Assembly: GCA_001872725.1 (NCBI GenBank) | Contig: MNWR01000057.1 | Location: forward strand, 1 to 64,000 | Length of the DNA stretch: 64,000 nt | Direction of reading: 5' to 3' | DNA from: Proteobacteria bacterium CG1_02_64_396 | GTDB lineage: Bacteria; Pseudomonadota; MNWR01; CG1-02-64-396 | In this document: piece after piece, positions 4,432-29,446 of the stretch | Layout of the letters: each line of letters opens with the position of its first letter | Position numbering within the stretch: the first letter of the stretch is position 1 | Notes under the pieces: model-generated | What the model was told of the DNA's origin: nothing | What the model saw: only the letters and a program-made list of their open reading frames with translations | Databases searched by the model: none | Translations under genes and position numbers: made by a program

Positions 4432-5231
4432 TACACCGCCTCCACCAGATCGAGGGTGATGGATCGCAAATTGCCCGCACGGGCGATGGGCATGTGGGGC
4501 ATCTGCTTGGCCTGCATCAGGTAGACCTCGGTCGGGCGGGTGTCGGGCATCCAGGCCCACCAAATAGGCAGACCGGCCTCGAAGCGTTGCTCACGGATCA
4601 GGTCGATCTTGGCCGCCAACGTGGGATCGATGGCCGACCATTGCGGCTTGAGCTCCAAACGTCGTCCGGTCACGTTAACCCACCGCCGCCCTGTTTCGGC
4701 CTCGAATTTGGTCGCAATCGTCACCTCGCGGTAGGGGTCGTAGCCCAGCTCGATGAAATCCATCTCGACCGCCTCGGCCAGCACGATCTCGGGGATCGTC
4801 AACACCTGTAAGGGGTCGAAATAGTTCAGCCTGATCAAATACTGGGTCGAGGGCGGGTGTGCGTTTAGCCGATAGATTCGACTCCCTTGGCTCGGACCAT
4901 CGTTGGGGGCGGCGTTAAGGATGGTGTTCCAGACTGCCCCGTCCCAATAGGCGACCGTCAACAGGGCCGACGCCGCCACGGAGCGAGCTCCTGCCGTGTC
5001 GTGGCGATGCCCGCCGAGGAGGATGACCGTCGGCATAGCAGCCGAGGCAAGGGTGGCGGTAATATCCACCCCACCCGATTCCCCGCCGTCGGCTTGGATC
5101 ACGGCGGGAGACAGCAGATCGCCGTCGGCGATGCTGTCCACCTTATAGCTGGGCGATTCGGTCCCGGTGAGCACCGCAAAGGCGGCCCCAGTGAGCAGGT
5201 TCGTGCCGATGATGAGGGGGGCGTCGGTCAT
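4431..5231 (-). CDS. Distal tail protein, probable
   Basis: A 266-residue protein with ATG at 5231 overlapping the tape-measure stop (ATGA). It begins MTDAPLIIGTNLLTGAAF and has a central jelly-roll-like region (RIYRLNAHPPSTQYLIRL) followed by a REVTIATKFEAETGRRW segment. This is the size and position of distal tail or carbohydrate-binding-type proteins directly downstream of tape measures in siphophages. No signal peptide or membrane segment is seen. Function is inferred mainly from gene order. Confidence 0.6.
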   Translation of the reverse strand: MTDAPLIIGTNLLTGAAFAVLTGTESPSYKVDSIADGDLLSPAVIQADGGESGGVDITATLASAAMPTVILLGGHRHDTAGARSVAASALLTVAYWDGAVWNTILNAAPNDGPSQGSRIYRLNAHPPSTQYLIRLNYFDPLQVLTIPEIVLAEAVEMDFIELGYDPYREVTIATKFEAETGRRWVNVTGRRLELKPQWSAIDPTLAAKIDLIREQRFEAGLPIWWAWMPDTRPTEVYLMQAKQMPHMPIARAGNLRSITLDLVEAV

Positions 5232-8200
5232 ACCGATACCGCCACGTTCGCACCGCGATTAATGTTGCGGTCGAGCACTGGAGAGAGTGCCTCGGCGATG
5301 CGCTGGAGCGTCCCGGCGCTGACCTCGTCCGGGTGCAGAGCCTGCACCTGTAGGTGGATCGTCACCGGGGGCTGCGTCGGTGGGGTGGCTGCCTTGTCGT
5401 GCGCTCCCGTGACTCCGCCATACCCCGACCCGGTGGCCATACTGCCGGGGGTGGATTGCACCCCCGCGCCTACTCCGCCCCCGGCGGAGGCGGAGGCTGC
5501 GCCGCCGTATTGCTGCTTCGAGATTGCGGCGACCCGTGCCACACCCTGGACGACGGCGATCCCTGCCGCCACGGCGGCCCGTGCGGGGGCGTCGGGCGTC
5601 GGAATCGCAAGCTGCGATTCATAGGCCTTCTGCGCGGCGGCATAGGTCGAGACCACCGTCTCGGCGATGGCGAGCGCCTTGCTGGCCTCGAAGGCCTTCT
5701 TGCCACCGTTTGCGAGCAGGGCCGACAGCGCACCGAACACCCCTGCGGTCAGTGACAGACGGGCCTCTGCCGCCTGTTTTTCGACCCCCGCCTTAGCGTT
5801 TTCGTGGATCTGTTTGGCCCGCAATTCGTCGCGGTCGTAACGGGCACGCAGCGCGGCAGTCATTTGGCCGCTGTCTTCCACTGCCTTGCGCTCGGCGGCC
5901 AGTGCCTCTAGCTGACGTTGATAACGCAGATTTTCTCTCTCCGCCTCGGTCAAAAACTGACCCTGCCACTCTTGTTCCAGGGCGGTGGATCGGTCGCGAG
6001 CGGCGGCGAGCAGAGCGTCGGTTTTGTCGCGCTCCTGCTGCGCCAACCACTGCCCATAGGCCTGTTCCAGCGCCACGACGCGGGCCGACCCTGCCCCCTC
6101 GACCGCCACCAGGGCCTCCCACCGCGCCGAGTATTCGGATGCCATCTTGGTGCTGGCGTCTTGGGCCGTGCCCAACAGATCGGCGGTCAACTGCCGCGCC
6201 TGCTCGACAGATTTGATTCGGTAATCGCTCAGAAACACAGCTAGATCGGGCATCTCGGCCACGATGCGCAGGCGCTGCTCCTCCGGGAGCGCGGCAAGCT
6301 GCGCGACCAGGTCGTCGAGCCCGGCTGCGTCCGACGTTGCGCGTACAGTCACGGATTTATCGCCGATCCCGTCGAGCAACGTGCCCACTTCGTCGAGAGA
6401 CGCAGTTTCGGCCCGCACGCGCACAACCACTTGCGACAGCGCGCCGAGACGGCCCTTGATTTGCTCGACGGCAGACAGCGACCCACTCAGAGCCTCGCTC
6501 CAGACTTGTGCTTGACTCTTGGCGCGTTCGCGCTCCTGCTGCGCCAACCACTGCCCATAGGCCTGTTCCAGCGCCACGACGCGGGCCGACCCTGCCCCCT
6601 CGACCGCCACCAGGGCCTCCCACCGCGCCGAGTATTCGGATGCCATCTTGGTGCTGGCGTCTTGGGCCGTGCCCAACAGATCGGCGGTCAACTGCCGCGC
6701 CTGCTCGACAGCTTGTTGCGCTTGGGTGGGGTCGATGCGAGGTGCCGGGATGGACCGGGGCGACGGGGCGGTGGGAGCACCGACGTCGTTCGGCGCCGCA
6801 AACATCTCGACGCCGACAGCGTCGATACCACCCAGGGCGCGGTCGCGCTCCTGGGCCAGCTTGGACAAGCTGTCGCTCAAGGAGGTGACTCCGCCCTTGG
6901 CCCGGTCCAGCCCGGCGCGCAGGCGGTCGGACCCCTCTTGGATGGCCCCGTAACCCGCTGTCGCCTCGTCCGCGACCCGACGCATTGCCACGCGATAGTC
7001 GGCCAAGGCCCGTCCGGCGGGTTGAATCGCCGACTCCCATTCGCCGATTTTCCGGGCGACGGTATCGAGCCCGAGTGATTCGGCCCCTGTTTTGAGTGCC
7101 GTCAAAAGCCCTTTTAAGGCCGTTTGAATGCCTTCGAATGCCGCCGATGCAGCAAATTTTGCCCCGGTCCACACCACAGTGGCGGCGGTCTGGGCGGTTT
7201 GCCACCCGTTGCGCAGCACTTGAAGCAATCCGACGAACAGTGACCCGATCCACCCGACCGCCTCGCCAGATCCGGTTTTGATCCCCTCCCAGGTGGCCGC
7301 TGCACCAAATTTGATCCACTCCCACCCCTTGAGCAGAGCGAGGACTAAGGCGTCGCCCGCCTGGCGCACGACGGCGAATTCCTCGCGGGCCCAAGATCCG
7401 ATTGCGTAACCGGCCATCCCCGCACCCAATAAATTAAACAGTCCGGCAATTCCGATTCCGGCGGCTTTCGTCGCCCCGGTCAGATCGGCGACCTGACTCC
7501 GTAGGGCGGCGGTCTGCGCCGTCAGGTCGGCCACAGTCTGTTGCGCGACTGCGCCCATGATCGAATCGGCCCTGGCCTTGGCGAGAGCCGCCTCGGCGCT
7601 GGCCAGTTCGGCCTGGGTCTGCTCCAGCAGTGCCGCCTTCTGGGCGCGCGCCGCCAGTGCCGCCTGGGCGGCAATCGCTACGGCCGACGTCTGACGGGCC
7701 AGCCAAATCGCCAACGCAGCCTCGGCGAGGGCGATGCCTCCCGATGCCAGGGCAGCCATGTGGTTGGCCACGCCGTCGAGGGCAGTGGCCAAATCTGTCG
7801 TGGCGCCTGAAATCTTGTTTTGTGCGTTGAGCCAGCGCCCGAAAGCGTTGGCAATGCGGGTTGAGGCCTGCTCGATGGTGACGGGCATTTGGTCGAATTC
7901 GGCTTGCACCGTGGCCGCCTGGCTGCGCAGCGCCTCGATCACCGTGGCGGCGGTGATCTGCCCCTGTTCGCCGAGCGCGCGCAGCGCCCCAAGCGGTACC
8001 CCGAGCCCATCGGCGATTGCCTGCGCGATGCGCGGGGTTTGCTCCAGCACCGAATTGAGCTCGTCGCCGCGCAACGTACCGCTGGCGAACCCCTGGGCAA
8101 GCTGAGTCATCGCGGCGGAGGCGGAGGACGACGAGGCCCCCGATACCACCGAGGCTTGCGACAGGGTCTTGGTGATTTCGATCAATTCGGCCTGGGAGAC

Positions 8201-8620
8201 ACCGAGTTGCCGCGTCGAGAGCGCGAGGCGCGAAAACAGATCGGCATTGGCGGCGATGGGGGTGCGGGTCTCTTGAGCGACGGCGTACAGGTCGCGCATG
8301 GCGACTCGTGATGCGGCCATCGACCCGGTGGCGAGTCGGATTCGACCGTCGAGGTTGGTCCAGGTATCGGCGACAGCGACGATCCCCGACAGGCCGCCAG
8401 AGGCGAACGGCAGAGCCTGGAACGACAGCCAGAGTGTGCGGGCCTGAGCGAGCTGGGTACTGATCGAGGTAATTCCGCGACGGGCCGCCGTGACCCCAGC
8501 CGCCATCTGCTGCGTCGAACGCAGCGACGTCTCACCGAGATCGCCGACCGTCTGACTGAGGCCGAGGATTTCGGCTTTTGCCTGCCCCCCAGAGGCGGTA
8601 ATCTTAAGGGCTAGTTGCAT
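5228..8620 (-). CDS. Tail tape measure protein
   Basis: A 1130-residue protein, the largest phage gene. The N-terminal 250 residues match the tape-measure domain of siphophages (DTWTNLDGRIRLATGS, then FASGTLRGDELNSVLEQTPRI). A middle region carries hydrophobic stretches, and the rest is Ala/Gln-rich coiled coil. It sits right after the chaperone pair, as in lambda-like tail operons, and should fix tail length and pass into the host envelope. Residues around 640-700 and 807-867 are the same block because of an exact 184-bp DNA duplication. The start ATG 8620 has only a weak AGG upstream. Confidence 0.9.
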   Translation of the reverse strand: MQLALKITASGGQAKAEILGLSQTVGDLGETSLRSTQQMAAGVTAARRGITSISTQLAQARTLWLSFQALPFASGGLSGIVAVADTWTNLDGRIRLATGSMAASRVAMRDLYAVAQETRTPIAANADLFSRLALSTRQLGVSQAELIEITKTLSQASVVSGASSSSASAAMTQLAQGFASGTLRGDELNSVLEQTPRIAQAIADGLGVPLGALRALGEQGQITAATVIEALRSQAATVQAEFDQMPVTIEQASTRIANAFGRWLNAQNKISGATTDLATALDGVANHMAALASGGIALAEAALAIWLARQTSAVAIAAQAALAARAQKAALLEQTQAELASAEAALAKARADSIMGAVAQQTVADLTAQTAALRSQVADLTGATKAAGIGIAGLFNLLGAGMAGYAIGSWAREEFAVVRQAGDALVLALLKGWEWIKFGAAATWEGIKTGSGEAVGWIGSLFVGLLQVLRNGWQTAQTAATVVWTGAKFAASAAFEGIQTALKGLLTALKTGAESLGLDTVARKIGEWESAIQPAGRALADYRVAMRRVADEATAGYGAIQEGSDRLRAGLDRAKGGVTSLSDSLSKLAQERDRALGGIDAVGVEMFAAPNDVGAPTAPSPRSIPAPRIDPTQAQQAVEQARQLTADLLGTAQDASTKMASEYSARWEALVAVEGAGSARVVALEQAYGQWLAQQERERAKSQAQVWSEALSGSLSAVEQIKGRLGALSQVVVRVRAETASLDEVGTLLDGIGDKSVTVRATSDAAGLDDLVAQLAALPEEQRLRIVAEMPDLAVFLSDYRIKSVEQARQLTADLLGTAQDASTKMASEYSARWEALVAVEGAGSARVVALEQAYGQWLAQQERDKTDALLAAARDRSTALEQEWQGQFLTEAERENLRYQRQLEALAAERKAVEDSGQMTAALRARYDRDELRAKQIHENAKAGVEKQAAEARLSLTAGVFGALSALLANGGKKAFEASKALAIAETVVSTYAAAQKAYESQLAIPTPDAPARAAVAAGIAVVQGVARVAAISKQQYGGAASASAGGGVGAGVQSTPGSMATGSGYGGVTGAHDKAATPPTQPPVTIHLQVQALHPDEVSAGTLQRIAEALSPVLDRNINRGANVAVSV
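6027..6711. repeat. Exact 184-bp in-frame direct repeat in the tape measure gene
   Basis: Positions 6027-6210 and 6528-6711 are identical base for base, 501 bp apart (167 codons). They encode the block from ERDKT/ERAKS back through QARQLTADLLGTAQDAS. Recombination between the copies would delete or add exactly 167 residues. Confidence 0.95.
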
Positions 8621-8649
8621 CGGTGGTTAACCTATACAAGGAGGGCGTC

Positions 8650-8805
8650 ATGGGGATCCTCGAAGACCTCGTCATGGGGGTGGTGGGGATTGTGCTGTCG
8701 CTCGTATCCAGTCCGTGGTGGCTGGTGGCTCCGGCCATCGTGGCCGTGAAGTGGGGGTATTACGCGGCGCGATACCTCTTCAGGCCGATCACCCCCACAC
8801 CCTGA
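8650..8805 (+). CDS. Small membrane protein encoded opposite the tail operon
   Basis: A 51-residue open frame starting at ATG 8650 behind a strong AAGGAGG (spacing 5). It begins MGILEDLVMGVVGIVLS and has a hydrophobic helix through GIVLSLVSSPWWLVAPAIVAV, ending with a basic YYAARYLFRP tail. It occupies the only gap in the tail operon (8621-8788) on the opposite strand, and its last 17 bp overlap the chaperone extension. I do not recognise the family. The ribosome site and clean membrane topology argue that it is real; expression would need its own promoter, which I could not identify. Confidence 0.5.
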   Translation: MGILEDLVMGVVGIVLSLVSSPWWLVAPAIVAVKWGYYAARYLFRPITPTP

Positions 8806-9037
8806 GCGCCTCCCCTTCTAGGGTTTGCACCCGTTCCAGGCAATCGGCCTGATCGCCGACCCCCAGCATCTGCATCGCGGCGTGAACGCTGGGTAGATCG
8901 AGGGCAGAGCGTCGCCCCTCGATCACCCGCCACGACCCGGAGCAGGCCAAAAACACCCGCAGCGCCTGCCAGTTCTCTTCCCACACCCACACGTCACTGC
9001 TCACCGACAACCGGGCGAGTTGTTCCTCGCCCAGCAT
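8789..9037 (-). CDS. DUF1799-type tail assembly chaperone extension (T part)
   Basis: This minus-strand open frame has the DUF1799 signature of phage tail genes: DVWVWEENWQALRVFLACSGSW, then a segment around LDLPSVHAAMQMLGV and a C-terminal LEGEALRVWG. The ATG at 9037 has no ribosome site. The same frame is open back to 9103, the last base of an A-AAA-AAC slippery heptamer at the end of the upstream chaperone. It is therefore more likely made as the C-terminal part of a -1 frameshift fusion than as a separate protein (see 8789-9441). Confidence 0.75.
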   Translation of the reverse strand: MLGEEQLARLSVSSDVWVWEENWQALRVFLACSGSWRVIEGRRSALDLPSVHAAMQMLGVGDQADCLERVQTLEGEALRVWG

Positions 9038-9441
9038 GGCGACGTCGTCGTCGTCGAACTTCGCCGTCCGCCCCCCGGCCCAGGCGCGGGCGGCGTCAAT
9101 CAGTTTTTTCGGGCGCCCTCGGCAATCGAGTCAAACCACGACCGGACGATGCACCCAGCCACCGGCACGATCTCGATCACCGCATCGAGGTTCTGCGGCG
9201 AAAACTGTAGCGGGTTGCCGTCCGCATCGATCACCTCCTTCCAGTCTTCCACCACCCGACGGCAGAACTCGGCGTCGTCGATCTCGCCACTCTTGGTCTC
9301 GTCCAGCAAGGACTCGACCTCGTGGCGGTTCAGGCGTCGGAAGACGGCGACGAACCGCGTCTTCTTGGTTTTACCCTTGTCGTCGATCAGGGCGACCTCG
9401 ACAGGCCAGGGGTAGGTATCGGAAAAATCGAGTTTGAACAT
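8789..9441 (-). CDS. Predicted -1 frameshift fusion of tail assembly chaperones (G-GT type)
   Basis: The 113-residue upstream product ends GCC-CGA-AAA-AAC-TGA. Read as CG[A-AAA-AAC], positions 9109-9103 form a textbook X-XXY-YYZ slip site directly before the stop. After a -1 slip, translation continues CTG-ATT-GAC from 9103 with no stop through the whole DUF1799 frame to 8789, giving about 217 residues. In lambda and many siphophages the short and frameshifted chaperones both assemble the tail around the tape measure, whose gene is next here. The shift itself is predicted, not shown. Confidence 0.75.
9100..9441 (-). CDS. Tail assembly chaperone (G part)
   Basis: A 113-residue protein with start ATG 9441 (MFKLDFSDTYPWPVEV) and an AAGG about 10 nt upstream. 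The upstream extension to 9582 is antisense-like filler overlapping the tail tube gene. The sequence has the tail-chaperone look: an N-terminal beta region, TKKTRFVAVFRRLNRHEVE, then a helical C-terminus with EFCRRVVEDWKEVIDADG. It lies between the tail tube and tape measure genes, as chaperones do. It ends at a slippery heptamer, so a minority of ribosomes should read on into the DUF1799 frame. Confidence 0.8.
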   Translation of the reverse strand: MFKLDFSDTYPWPVEVALIDDKGKTKKTRFVAVFRRLNRHEVESLLDETKSGEIDDAEFCRRVVEDWKEVIDADGNPLQFSPQNLDAVIEIVPVAGCIVRSWFDSIAEGARKN

Positions 9442-9452
9442 GGCGCGTGACC

Positions 9453-10388
9453 TTATTGGAGGGTGACGGTGATGGCGTCGTGCGCAGTTTGCGCCGAATT
9501 GAGAACGCGCAGCGGCAGGCCGAGAAACGACACCCCGGCGTCGTCGCTGAAACCGGGCTTGCCGATCTGCACGCGGGGGCACGCGATCACCAGCGACTTG
9601 CCGCTGCCGAGGCCGTGTTTGATTTCGAGCGCCCCCGCTGCCCCCGACTGGGCTTTGGCCCAGGCGTCGAAGGTCGCCACCGAGGGTTCCTCGACGGTGG
9701 CTGTGCCGGAGGGCTTCTGGCCGACGATGTCGATGCGCTCAGCGTTGGTCAGGTGGCGGTGCTGCACATCGTTGCCGAGCTTGATCTCCAGGTCTTTCAG
9801 CCCGAGGCTCACCCCGTGCAGAACAAACGAGTTGGTGTAGGTCGCGTCGGCAGGGTAGATGTCGAGGTTGGGCAGCACGGTGCCGGAGGGGAGCGCACCG
9901 TCGGCCACCGGCTTGTAGAGCCCGGTAAAGGCAAAGTGCATGACCGCCTCCCCCGCCGCCGTCACCTTGAACGACCAGTCGCCGCGACAGCCGACCGCCT
10001 GGTGTTTCACTCCGTCGCGATAGGCCTCGAACGTCAGCGACTCGAAGCCGCTGCCGACCAAGGCATAGATCGTTTTGGTGCCCGGCGTGTTGGTCTCGGA
10101 CCAGCCGCAACCCCGCATCAACCGCCCCCACCAGGGGATCGTCCCGGCCATAGTGGCGTTGGGCAGCGGCACGTCGAATTCGATCTTGCAGCCGAGGCCA
10201 GTCATGGGGATGGCGGCGTCCTCGCCCAATACCGGCTTGACCACCGCCGGAGCCAGTTCGACGCCCTCAAGTGGGGTCAGGCTGAAATTGGTCACCGCAA
10301 GGGCGTCGGTGGCTGGGGATGGGGTGGCTGCGGTCCCATAGACGGTTTCGATCTTGGCCATGATGACCTTTTTCGCGGCGAGGATCAT
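9453..10388 (-). CDS. Major tail tube protein
   Basis: A 311-residue protein starting at ATG 10388 (MILAAKKVIMAKIETVYGT), overlapping the upstream small gene as ATGA. The N-terminus (KVIMAKIETVYGTAATPSPATDAL) and Gly/Thr-rich beta-strand content, including a later LGLKDLEIKLGNDVQH segment, are those of phage tail tube proteins in Mu-like siphophages. It precedes the chaperone and tape measure genes. It would polymerise into the hollow tail. No sheath gene lies next to it, which supports a non-contractile tail. Confidence 0.8.
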   Translation of the reverse strand: MILAAKKVIMAKIETVYGTAATPSPATDALAVTNFSLTPLEGVELAPAVVKPVLGEDAAIPMTGLGCKIEFDVPLPNATMAGTIPWWGRLMRGCGWSETNTPGTKTIYALVGSGFESLTFEAYRDGVKHQAVGCRGDWSFKVTAAGEAVMHFAFTGLYKPVADGALPSGTVLPNLDIYPADATYTNSFVLHGVSLGLKDLEIKLGNDVQHRHLTNAERIDIVGQKPSGTATVEEPSVATFDAWAKAQSGAAGALEIKHGLGSGKSLVIACPRVQIGKPGFSDDAGVSFLGLPLRVLNSAQTAHDAITVTLQ

Positions 10389-27457: not shown

Positions 27458-29446
27458 TTATTGGTTGGCGCCCGTTGAACGGGTCTTGAGAGGTGCTGTT
27501 TTGGCGAGGTGCCGATCCAGCATCCTGTTGACGTTTTCTTGGAAGATTCGCTGCCGCTGGGGGTCAGACGAGGGGCCGACGACATCCCCGTTCGCCACCC
27601 GCTTGAGCGGCTGCCCAAAATTGGGGGCGACCAAGCCGGGGGCTGGGATGGACGCAGGGGTGTTGGGGGCGGGCGTTAAGGCTGCCGCCTCCAGGGCGCC
27701 CATCCGTTTGTCGGCCTGGGCCGCAACCTTCTGGGCTTTCTGGCTGCGGGCTTTGTTCTTGGCCCACTCCCGCCCTGCCTCGGTATCGCCGAAGCCCACC
27801 CCGGCGTAGTGCTGCACTTTGCCGATCACCTGGCCGTCCAAGGTGGTCACCGTGACTGCTGCCAGCAGATCGGCGGGGTCGTAGTACGCCACCACCTTCT
27901 GCCCCTTGCGGTCGGCCATGGCTTCGTTCCAATAGCGATGGGCGCCGTGGGGCCCCTTGCCCGCTTGCAGCTTGATCTCCCCCCGCTCCCGGCTGGCGGT
28001 CACCACCTCGGGCATCAGCAGCAACATTTCCCGCTGCTCCAAGGTCAGCACACGGACGGTCGCGTCCTTGAAACTTTCGGCAAAGGCTTCGTCGTAGCTC
28101 TTCACCCCGGCGCAAATGTCGGTACGCCGGTTGGGCCGGGCGTTAAAACGCACCACTTCTTGCGCCACCACCTGCGCGAATTCTGCGTAGGGAATAGCGG
28201 TGGCTTTGCTGAAGCCCCGGTCTAAAAATTGTGGGTGTTTGGCCACCAGATCGTGCAATCCGCCAATACCGAAACTGCGTTCAATCGGTTTGGCGCCGGG
28301 GTTCGATTTGGTCATATCGGGCAACGTAAAACGGGGGGTAATCCCCACCAGTTGCAGCAACCCCAGGGGGTCGTCTTCCCTGTTTTTAAAGCGGTGGCGG
28401 TTGCCCGACCGCCCGGTCATCGCCTTGTTGGCGGCGACCACGGTGTTGTCGATCCACGCATCGGTAGGGGTGCAAATGGCGGTCAGGTCGTAGGTGGCCA
28501 GGCGGAAAAGATCGGTGTTTTCGGTTTTGGCCAGCCGGTAGGCCAGAATCTTGTTGCTGCGCAGATCGGCCCAGAACCAACCGGTGCTGGTGTTCAGCAC
28601 CTCGCCGTCGGGCCACTTCACCCACAGCTTGTCGAACTTCAGCCCGTCGCCCACCACCGCCTCGCCCGCTGCGTACATCGACCGATCCCGCTTCTGCGGG
28701 GGATACAGGCGAGCCAACGCCACCTCGCCCTCCCGCCAATACACACGGGTGGACTCCTTAATGTCGCTCTGCACCCGTTTGTGAAAGGTGCGCAGCGCGG
28801 GCAAGTCGCCCCACCCGTGCTGCTTGGCCGCTTCGTCCGTGCGGCGGTAACATTCGGCGACGGTGTCCCCGTCGTGGGTTAAATACAGGGCCAGAAAGTA
28901 ATCCCACGCAGCCGGGGGAATTTCTTTACGCTCGCGCTGCACGCTCCAGCCGGGGATCATCAGCGCCGCCCAATCGCTTTTGGGGTGCTCGCGCACTCCT
29001 GGGTGTTGGCTGGTGCCGTAATACCAACCGCGTATCGTGGCGGCAGGTATGGCCCATTCCTGGGCCACTGTTTCCAGCGCCTCGCGCACGGGAATTTTCG
29101 CGTCGAGCAGGTCGCGCAATTTAAAAAGGCACATCGCTTTGTTCTGGCCGATGTCGCGGTGTTTTTGCGATTTGGTCCACGCCCACCGCCAAAGGTGGGA
29201 AGAGCGTTCGCTGTCGGGGGTGGGGTTTTCTGGGGATGGGGGCGTTGGGGCGGCAGGGAGCAACTGTTTCAACGCGGAGGAATACCCCCCCGAGGCTATC
29301 GATTCGATGTTGTACTGCTTAGCGATGCCGCCATTCATGCGGACTTCCCTGGAGGGCCAATCCCTCGCCCTCCTGGCTACCGCCTGCTTTGATACCCCGG
29401 CGGCTGCGGCGATTTCTGCCAGGCTGAACCATTCGACGGGTGTCAT
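27458..29446 (-). CDS. MuA-type DDE transposase
   Basis: A 662-residue protein from ATG 29446, overlapping the Ner-fusion stop as ATGA. An N-terminal MuA-like HTH (WFSLAEIAAAAGVSKQAVARRA) is followed by the DDE core with D267 (VVGDGLKF), D333 (WIDNTVVAANKAMTG) and E389 (GAKPIERSFGIGGL). Mu has D269, D336 and E392, so spacing is almost the same. A mu-transposase C-terminal domain and a MuB-interacting tail follow. It performs integration and replicative transposition. Confidence 0.95.
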   Translation of the reverse strand: MTPVEWFSLAEIAAAAGVSKQAVARRARDWPSREVRMNGGIAKQYNIESIASGGYSSALKQLLPAAPTPPSPENPTPDSERSSHLWRWAWTKSQKHRDIGQNKAMCLFKLRDLLDAKIPVREALETVAQEWAIPAATIRGWYYGTSQHPGVREHPKSDWAALMIPGWSVQRERKEIPPAAWDYFLALYLTHDGDTVAECYRRTDEAAKQHGWGDLPALRTFHKRVQSDIKESTRVYWREGEVALARLYPPQKRDRSMYAAGEAVVGDGLKFDKLWVKWPDGEVLNTSTGWFWADLRSNKILAYRLAKTENTDLFRLATYDLTAICTPTDAWIDNTVVAANKAMTGRSGNRHRFKNREDDPLGLLQLVGITPRFTLPDMTKSNPGAKPIERSFGIGGLHDLVAKHPQFLDRGFSKATAIPYAEFAQVVAQEVVRFNARPNRRTDICAGVKSYDEAFAESFKDATVRVLTLEQREMLLLMPEVVTASRERGEIKLQAGKGPHGAHRYWNEAMADRKGQKVVAYYDPADLLAAVTVTTLDGQVIGKVQHYAGVGFGDTEAGREWAKNKARSQKAQKVAAQADKRMGALEAAALTPAPNTPASIPAPGLVAPNFGQPLKRVANGDVVGPSSDPQRQRIFQENVNRMLDRHLAKTAPLKTRSTGANQ

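Follow-up and report, generated by a model that had tools for sequence, protein, structure and literature searches.

A probable programmed -1 frameshift at an abutting stop codon joins a tail chaperone to DUF1799 in a Mu-like prophage

The slip site and the two overlapping frames

In a Mu-like prophage, a tail assembly chaperone gene and the DUF1799 frame behind it are very probably joined by programmed -1 ribosomal frameshifting of the lambda G/GT type, as judged from the sequence and its relatives. The two overlapping frames sit between the genes of the tail tube protein and the tape measure protein (order tube, chaperone, DUF1799, tape measure; Table 1) in the window, which is the whole stretch of 64,000 nt analysed. 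On the minus strand, positions 9111-9100 read CGA (9111-9109), AAA (9108-9106), AAC (9105-9103) and TGA (9102-9100). The register of this X_XXY_YYZ heptamer is the one that links both frames by -1. The -1 frame opens at 9130, directly past an in-frame TGA. A -1 slip makes CTG (9103-9101) the next codon; counted from it, the frame has 104 codons before its TGA (8791-8789). The original prediction had named both the A_AAA_AAC right before the stop and the 104 codons free of stops; its coordinates and counts are all correct on re-reading. Among 317 ORF ends in the window, one of the heptamers AAAAAAC, GGGAAAC, AAAAAAG and GGGAAAG stands directly before the stop only once, at the slip site itself.

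Table 1. Features of the tail chaperone locus in the window
Feature	Positions	Strand	Basis
Tail tube protein gene (Phage_tube_2), upstream of the chaperones	9453..10388	-	Domain match
Tail assembly chaperone gene of the 0 frame (upstream; 113 aa; role like lambda gpG)	9100..9441	-	PHROG matches, PF08748 relatives, fold
Slippery heptamer A_AAA_AAC	9103..9109	-	Read from sequence; in register in 99/100 Pfam-found loci
0-frame stop TGA, abutting the heptamer	9100..9102	-	Abutting stop in 73/100 loci, above synonymous codon expectation
-1 frame extension, DUF1799, lambda T-like part of the putative fusion, 104 codons and stop	8789..9103	-	PF08809, predicted fold
Predicted stem-loop, candidate stimulator, 7 nt past the heptamer	9062..9095	-	Centroid hairpin
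Internal ATG of the -1 frame, without ribosome site, not a likely start	9035..9037	-	Sequence, relatives
Tape measure protein gene (TMP_3), downstream of the chaperones	5228..8620	-	Domain match

The ATG of the upstream gene (9441) is preceded at 9 nt by the Shine-Dalgarno sequence AAGG (9454-9451). Its protein matches PHROG 313, a tail assembly chaperone family (E 5.6e-6), and PHROG 569, a family labelled tape measure protein (E 1.5e-9). Phage_TAC_4 (PF08748) matches 23 of the 25 members of its alignment (best 1.4e-43); the window protein itself has no match to this model at E 0.01. The predicted fold is confident (pLDDT 92.5) and ends in a C-terminal helix (residues 94-112). The product of the -1 frame matches DUF1799 (PF08809) with 40.3 bits at a cut-off of 26, and its predicted fold is likewise confident (pLDDT 89.1), with the first helix (residues 2-9) directly after the slip. 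In the models, the end helix of the chaperone and the first helix of DUF1799 are compatible with a single continuous helix in the fusion. Fold matching found no solved structure, solved tail chaperones included, that resembles either part. Thus, the pair is likened to lambda gpG/gpT by role and position only.

PHROG 17368 spans both the chaperone and the DUF1799 parts. Together with PHROG 569 and 680 it is labelled 'tail length tape measure protein', yet what these families match is the chaperone with its extension, DUF1799. Many phage records therefore carry a misleading name; the gene is present in more than 1000 of them.

Conservation of the heptamer

DUF1799 loci were gathered with the Pfam model PF08809. 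This model begins well downstream of the junction, so the selection of loci is blind to the slip site. An in-register X_XXY_YYZ heptamer, nearly always A_AAA_AAC or G_GGA_AAC, is present in 99 of the 100 Pfam-found loci, and a 0-frame stop follows it directly in 73. With phage records and other contigs added, the heptamer is in register in 267 of 270 loci. These comprise 133 loci that are distinct at about 75% identity, of which 102 have the abutting stop (A_AAA_AAC 62, G_GGA_AAC 39, A_AAA_AAG 1). Serratia phage Smarc4, with the non-canonical C_GAA_AAG, was excluded from the counts. L043 and L276, which match the Pfam model weakly and have 35 codons between heptamer and stop, are possibly unrelated.

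There are three exceptions among the 270 loci. L091 has GGGAAAT directly before TGA, and the junction of L049 is unreadable. In L068 (Photorhabdus australis DSM 17609) an extra A places the chaperone and DUF1799 in one ORF. The run at about 1495-1505 of this locus has eight As, not six; the fusion may be natural, or it may stem from decay of the prophage or from an error in sequencing.

The locus is a prophage in a draft genome, and an ordinary gene overlap or a decaying gene with a heptamer formed by chance might be considered on that ground. This explanation is scarcely conceivable given the near-universal conservation of the heptamer and the intact flanking tail and head genes. Furthermore, none of 1578 other ORF ends (at least 100 codons) in the flanks of the relatives has AAAAAAC, GGGAAAC, AAAAAAG or GGGAAAG right before the stop; the background ORF ends were drawn from the window and the loci of the relatives.

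A joining of the frames at the RNA level, by a polymerase that adds or drops an A on the A6 run (9109-9104), is very hard to credit. The A8 variant of L068 does fuse both frames. However, six As are short for polymerase slippage, and 39 of the 102 distinct loci with an abutting stop use GGGAAAC, in which the longest run is three. Transcriptional slippage is thus not the shared mechanism. Reassignment of TGA was also considered and rejected. Nothing points to it, the genome has two matches to the class-I release factor family, and read-through of TGA would not help because the linked frame is -1.

The missing start of the DUF1799 frame

Several depositors annotate DUF1799 as a separate CDS. The protein might be a separate product, with ribosomes reinitiating past the TGA on the ATG at 9037, which is present in the window, or starting on the CTG overlapping the stop (as CTGA). 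In the records of Rhodobacter phages RC1 and RS1 the annotation starts from such an overlapping CTG.

Between its opening and this ATG, the -1 frame contains no ATG, GTG or TTG. No Shine-Dalgarno sequence precedes the ATG either (the preceding sequence is GACGACGACGACGTCGCC), in agreement with the original prediction, which had described this codon as lacking a ribosome site. One of the observations that, by the same prediction, would speak against it is a start of the second frame's own, complete with ribosome site, in related phages. Such a start is found near the slip in 8 of the 133 distinct loci and is absent there in the other 125. In 92 of the 133 no start codon lies upstream of the conserved post-slip peptide, and the median distance to the first downstream start is 22 codons.

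The downstream frame, which has no start of its own, is conserved as protein up to the slip. The peptide directly past the slip, upstream of the ATG at 9037, reads K-L-[IKRT]-x-[AV]-A-R throughout the family. K-L hardly varies, and the positions that follow strongly favour small residues (A/V, then A). Between the window and the relative L014 the first 12 residues from the slip are identical, and the DNA differences are synonymous only. Conservation of this peptide (KLIxAA) in the lack of any start codon is taken as a sign of selection.

The overlapping codon fares no better as a start. Where the abutting stop is TAA or TAG (25 of 102 loci), this codon is CTA, which is no start. A_AAA_AAA_TGA, which would supply an ATGA overlap with the slip kept, occurs in none of 228 cases. 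On the evidence of peptide, starts and codons, a separate start at either codon was rejected as highly improbable.

Proposed mechanism

Under programmed -1 frameshifting, most ribosomes would read the chaperone gene to its TGA and release the 113-aa chaperone, in the role of gpG. In a minority, tRNA-Lys and tRNA-Asn on AAA AAC would slip one base back onto AAA AAA. These ribosomes would resume at the CTG (9103) and make a 217-aa chaperone-DUF1799 fusion, in the role of gpGT, which would read ...ARKN-LIDAAR... across the junction. By analogy with lambda, both products would be assembly factors: the chaperone part would coat the tape measure protein, and tube subunits would be recruited by the DUF1799 part. 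Published motif studies place A_AAA_AAC among the weak heptamers on E. coli ribosomes (PMC5009743; PMC4066793), so that a low efficiency of a few per cent would be expected.

The abutting stop

The expected frequency of abutting stops was derived from a null model in which the Leu codon of the -1 frame, CTG or CTA, is only as frequent as elsewhere. Among 126 Leu cases, 101 abutting stops are seen where 50.8 are expected, an excess of about twofold. Where the next codon starts with G, which needs the rare CTA, the stop abuts in 9 of 15 cases against 0.8 expected. Because of this excess over the Leu codon expectation, the adjacent stop appears to be a selected arrangement. In this form the claim of the original prediction that the stop is part of the signal is upheld; its further sense, an effect on the slip, has to be set against work on HIV-derived reporters. 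In human cells, frameshifting in these reporters was lowered by an adjacent stop and became responsive to release factor, and earlier work of the same group found the effect of the stop in the HIV system in bacteria likewise (PMC4373837). By this analogy, the abutting stop would be predicted to lower the slip.

A selected stop may simply end the short product without a tail, or it may tune slippage. We regard it as possible, though rather doubtful, that the stop is a working part of the recoding signal. AAA AAC would then occupy the E and P sites with the stop in the A site, competition with release factor would set the slipping fraction, and the ratio of chaperone to fusion would follow release factor supply. 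If true, RF2-type tuning would have a -1 counterpart throughout a large family of phage tail chaperones.

In a subgroup of relatives (L033, L240, L245, L248, L249, L253 and others) TCC replaces the abutting stop and termination lies 8-11 codons on. The intervening codons are similar among its members, and the subgroup offers a natural comparison by which to judge what the stop does. No paper surveying the abutting stop in the TAC_4/DUF1799 family was found in the literature covered, which is incomplete and does not include the founding survey (Xu et al. 2004).

RNA folding around the slip site

The predicted hairpin (9095-9062) is not unusual compared with dinucleotide shuffles of the window sequence (z -0.55). 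Compared with synonymous-codon shuffles, which keep the protein constant, folding of the window locus has a z of -2.2. As the single window sequence does not stand out significantly under dinucleotide shuffling, the case for a stimulator rests on the family. Across 102 loci, folding just downstream of the slip exceeds that of synonymous shuffles (mean z -0.91 in a 50-nt window; -0.83 with local shuffles), and these loci have no excess in windows that begin some 34 to 80 nt further on. The excess just downstream of the slip is most simply read as a sign of selection.

An upstream Shine-Dalgarno enhancer was considered and rejected. The window has GAGGG at 9120-9116 upstream of the slip (duplex -6.4 kcal/mol); the family-wide signal is weak (mean z -0.2, p 0.04, p-values being optimistic because the loci are phylogenetically related).

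Prophage setting

The head genes of the prophage are Mu-like (Mu gpT, protease I, portal, gp27 and gp36), and a Mu-type transposase domain (DDE_2) is present at 28073-28675. Between DUF1799 and the tape measure gene lies a gap with an antisense ORF of 60 aa (8623-8805, plus strand), which is hydrophobic and has no match in Pfam or the PDB. It could be a gene for a small membrane protein or a chance ORF. The same gap in L037 holds a different antisense ORF, also hydrophobic; L014 is without such a gap.

Comparison with known systems

Frameshifted tail chaperones are textbook knowledge, and the lambda heptamer is G_GGA_AAG. The window pair shares with lambda G/GT its location, flanked by the genes of the major tail protein and the tape measure protein, and the predicted -1 tandem slip. 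It differs in its protein families (no homology of the lambda proteins to the TAC_4-like and DUF1799 parts was detected here), in its heptamer and in the 0-frame stop directly past it. In lambda, gpG is the abundant short product and gpGT the rare, C-terminally extended one, with roles as reviewed (PMC5009743).

Homologous DUF1799 in the same -1 register is found in T1-like phages (Drexlerviridae), in Serratia phages Smarc2 and Smarc4 and in Hafnia phage Pocis76. In Smarc2 and in those T1-like records that were read, a stop likewise follows A_AAA_AAC directly. These phages have other heads, whereas the window module lies behind a Mu-like head and is accompanied by a Mu-type transposase. For Smarc2, Smarc4 and Pocis76, joined CDSs were annotated by the depositors, and a frameshift is mentioned for T1-like phages (PMC4319613; PMC8407766). 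In Acinetobacter phage Loki the AAAAAAC-stop arrangement has been pointed out (PMC5313236), and by this arrangement its gp12/gp13 are likened to the window pair. The window site is thus of a known type, in a family for which some T1-like and Serratia phages already carry a frameshift annotation.

The Rhodobacter phages RC1 and RS1, whose head gene order resembles that of Mu, carry the same gene pair with G_GGA_AAC TGA. The CTG start annotated there for DUF1799 is probably an artefact caused by the frameshift.

Mu itself has a head and a transposase like those of the window prophage, but its tail chaperone frameshift is -2 (PMC5009743), compared with -1 here. D3112/PaMx73 and B3 combine a -1 slippery heptamer and a siphophage tail with a Mu-like head, as in the window. 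Their heptamers (D3112 T_TTT_TTC, B3 C_CCT_TTC) lie 41-43 codons before the stop, and the chaperone family and the C-terminal part are others (PMC4378225). The window pair does not fit this type with its pyrimidine heptamer and its own C-terminal part. The heptamers of phage B3 (L286, 3447) and D3112 (L287, 5009) open -1 frames with similar peptides, and the B3/D3112 chaperones appear, from sequence, to be frameshifted as well, at a site far from the stop. The original prediction had proposed a search of these phages for conserved slippery sites; heptamers are present, but they form another site in another chaperone family. It had also described lambda G/GT logic in a Mu-like phage. The lambda-type -1 shift is supported by the comparison with relatives and the Mu-like character by head genes and transposase, with the qualification that this logic is not that of Mu.

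For a widespread gene pair, the findings correct the annotation: DUF1799 would be a frameshift extension and not a separate gene. Conservation extends jointly to the slip site, the abutting stop and the folding downstream. The influence of the stop on the ratio of the two chaperones is now directly testable in laboratory phages.
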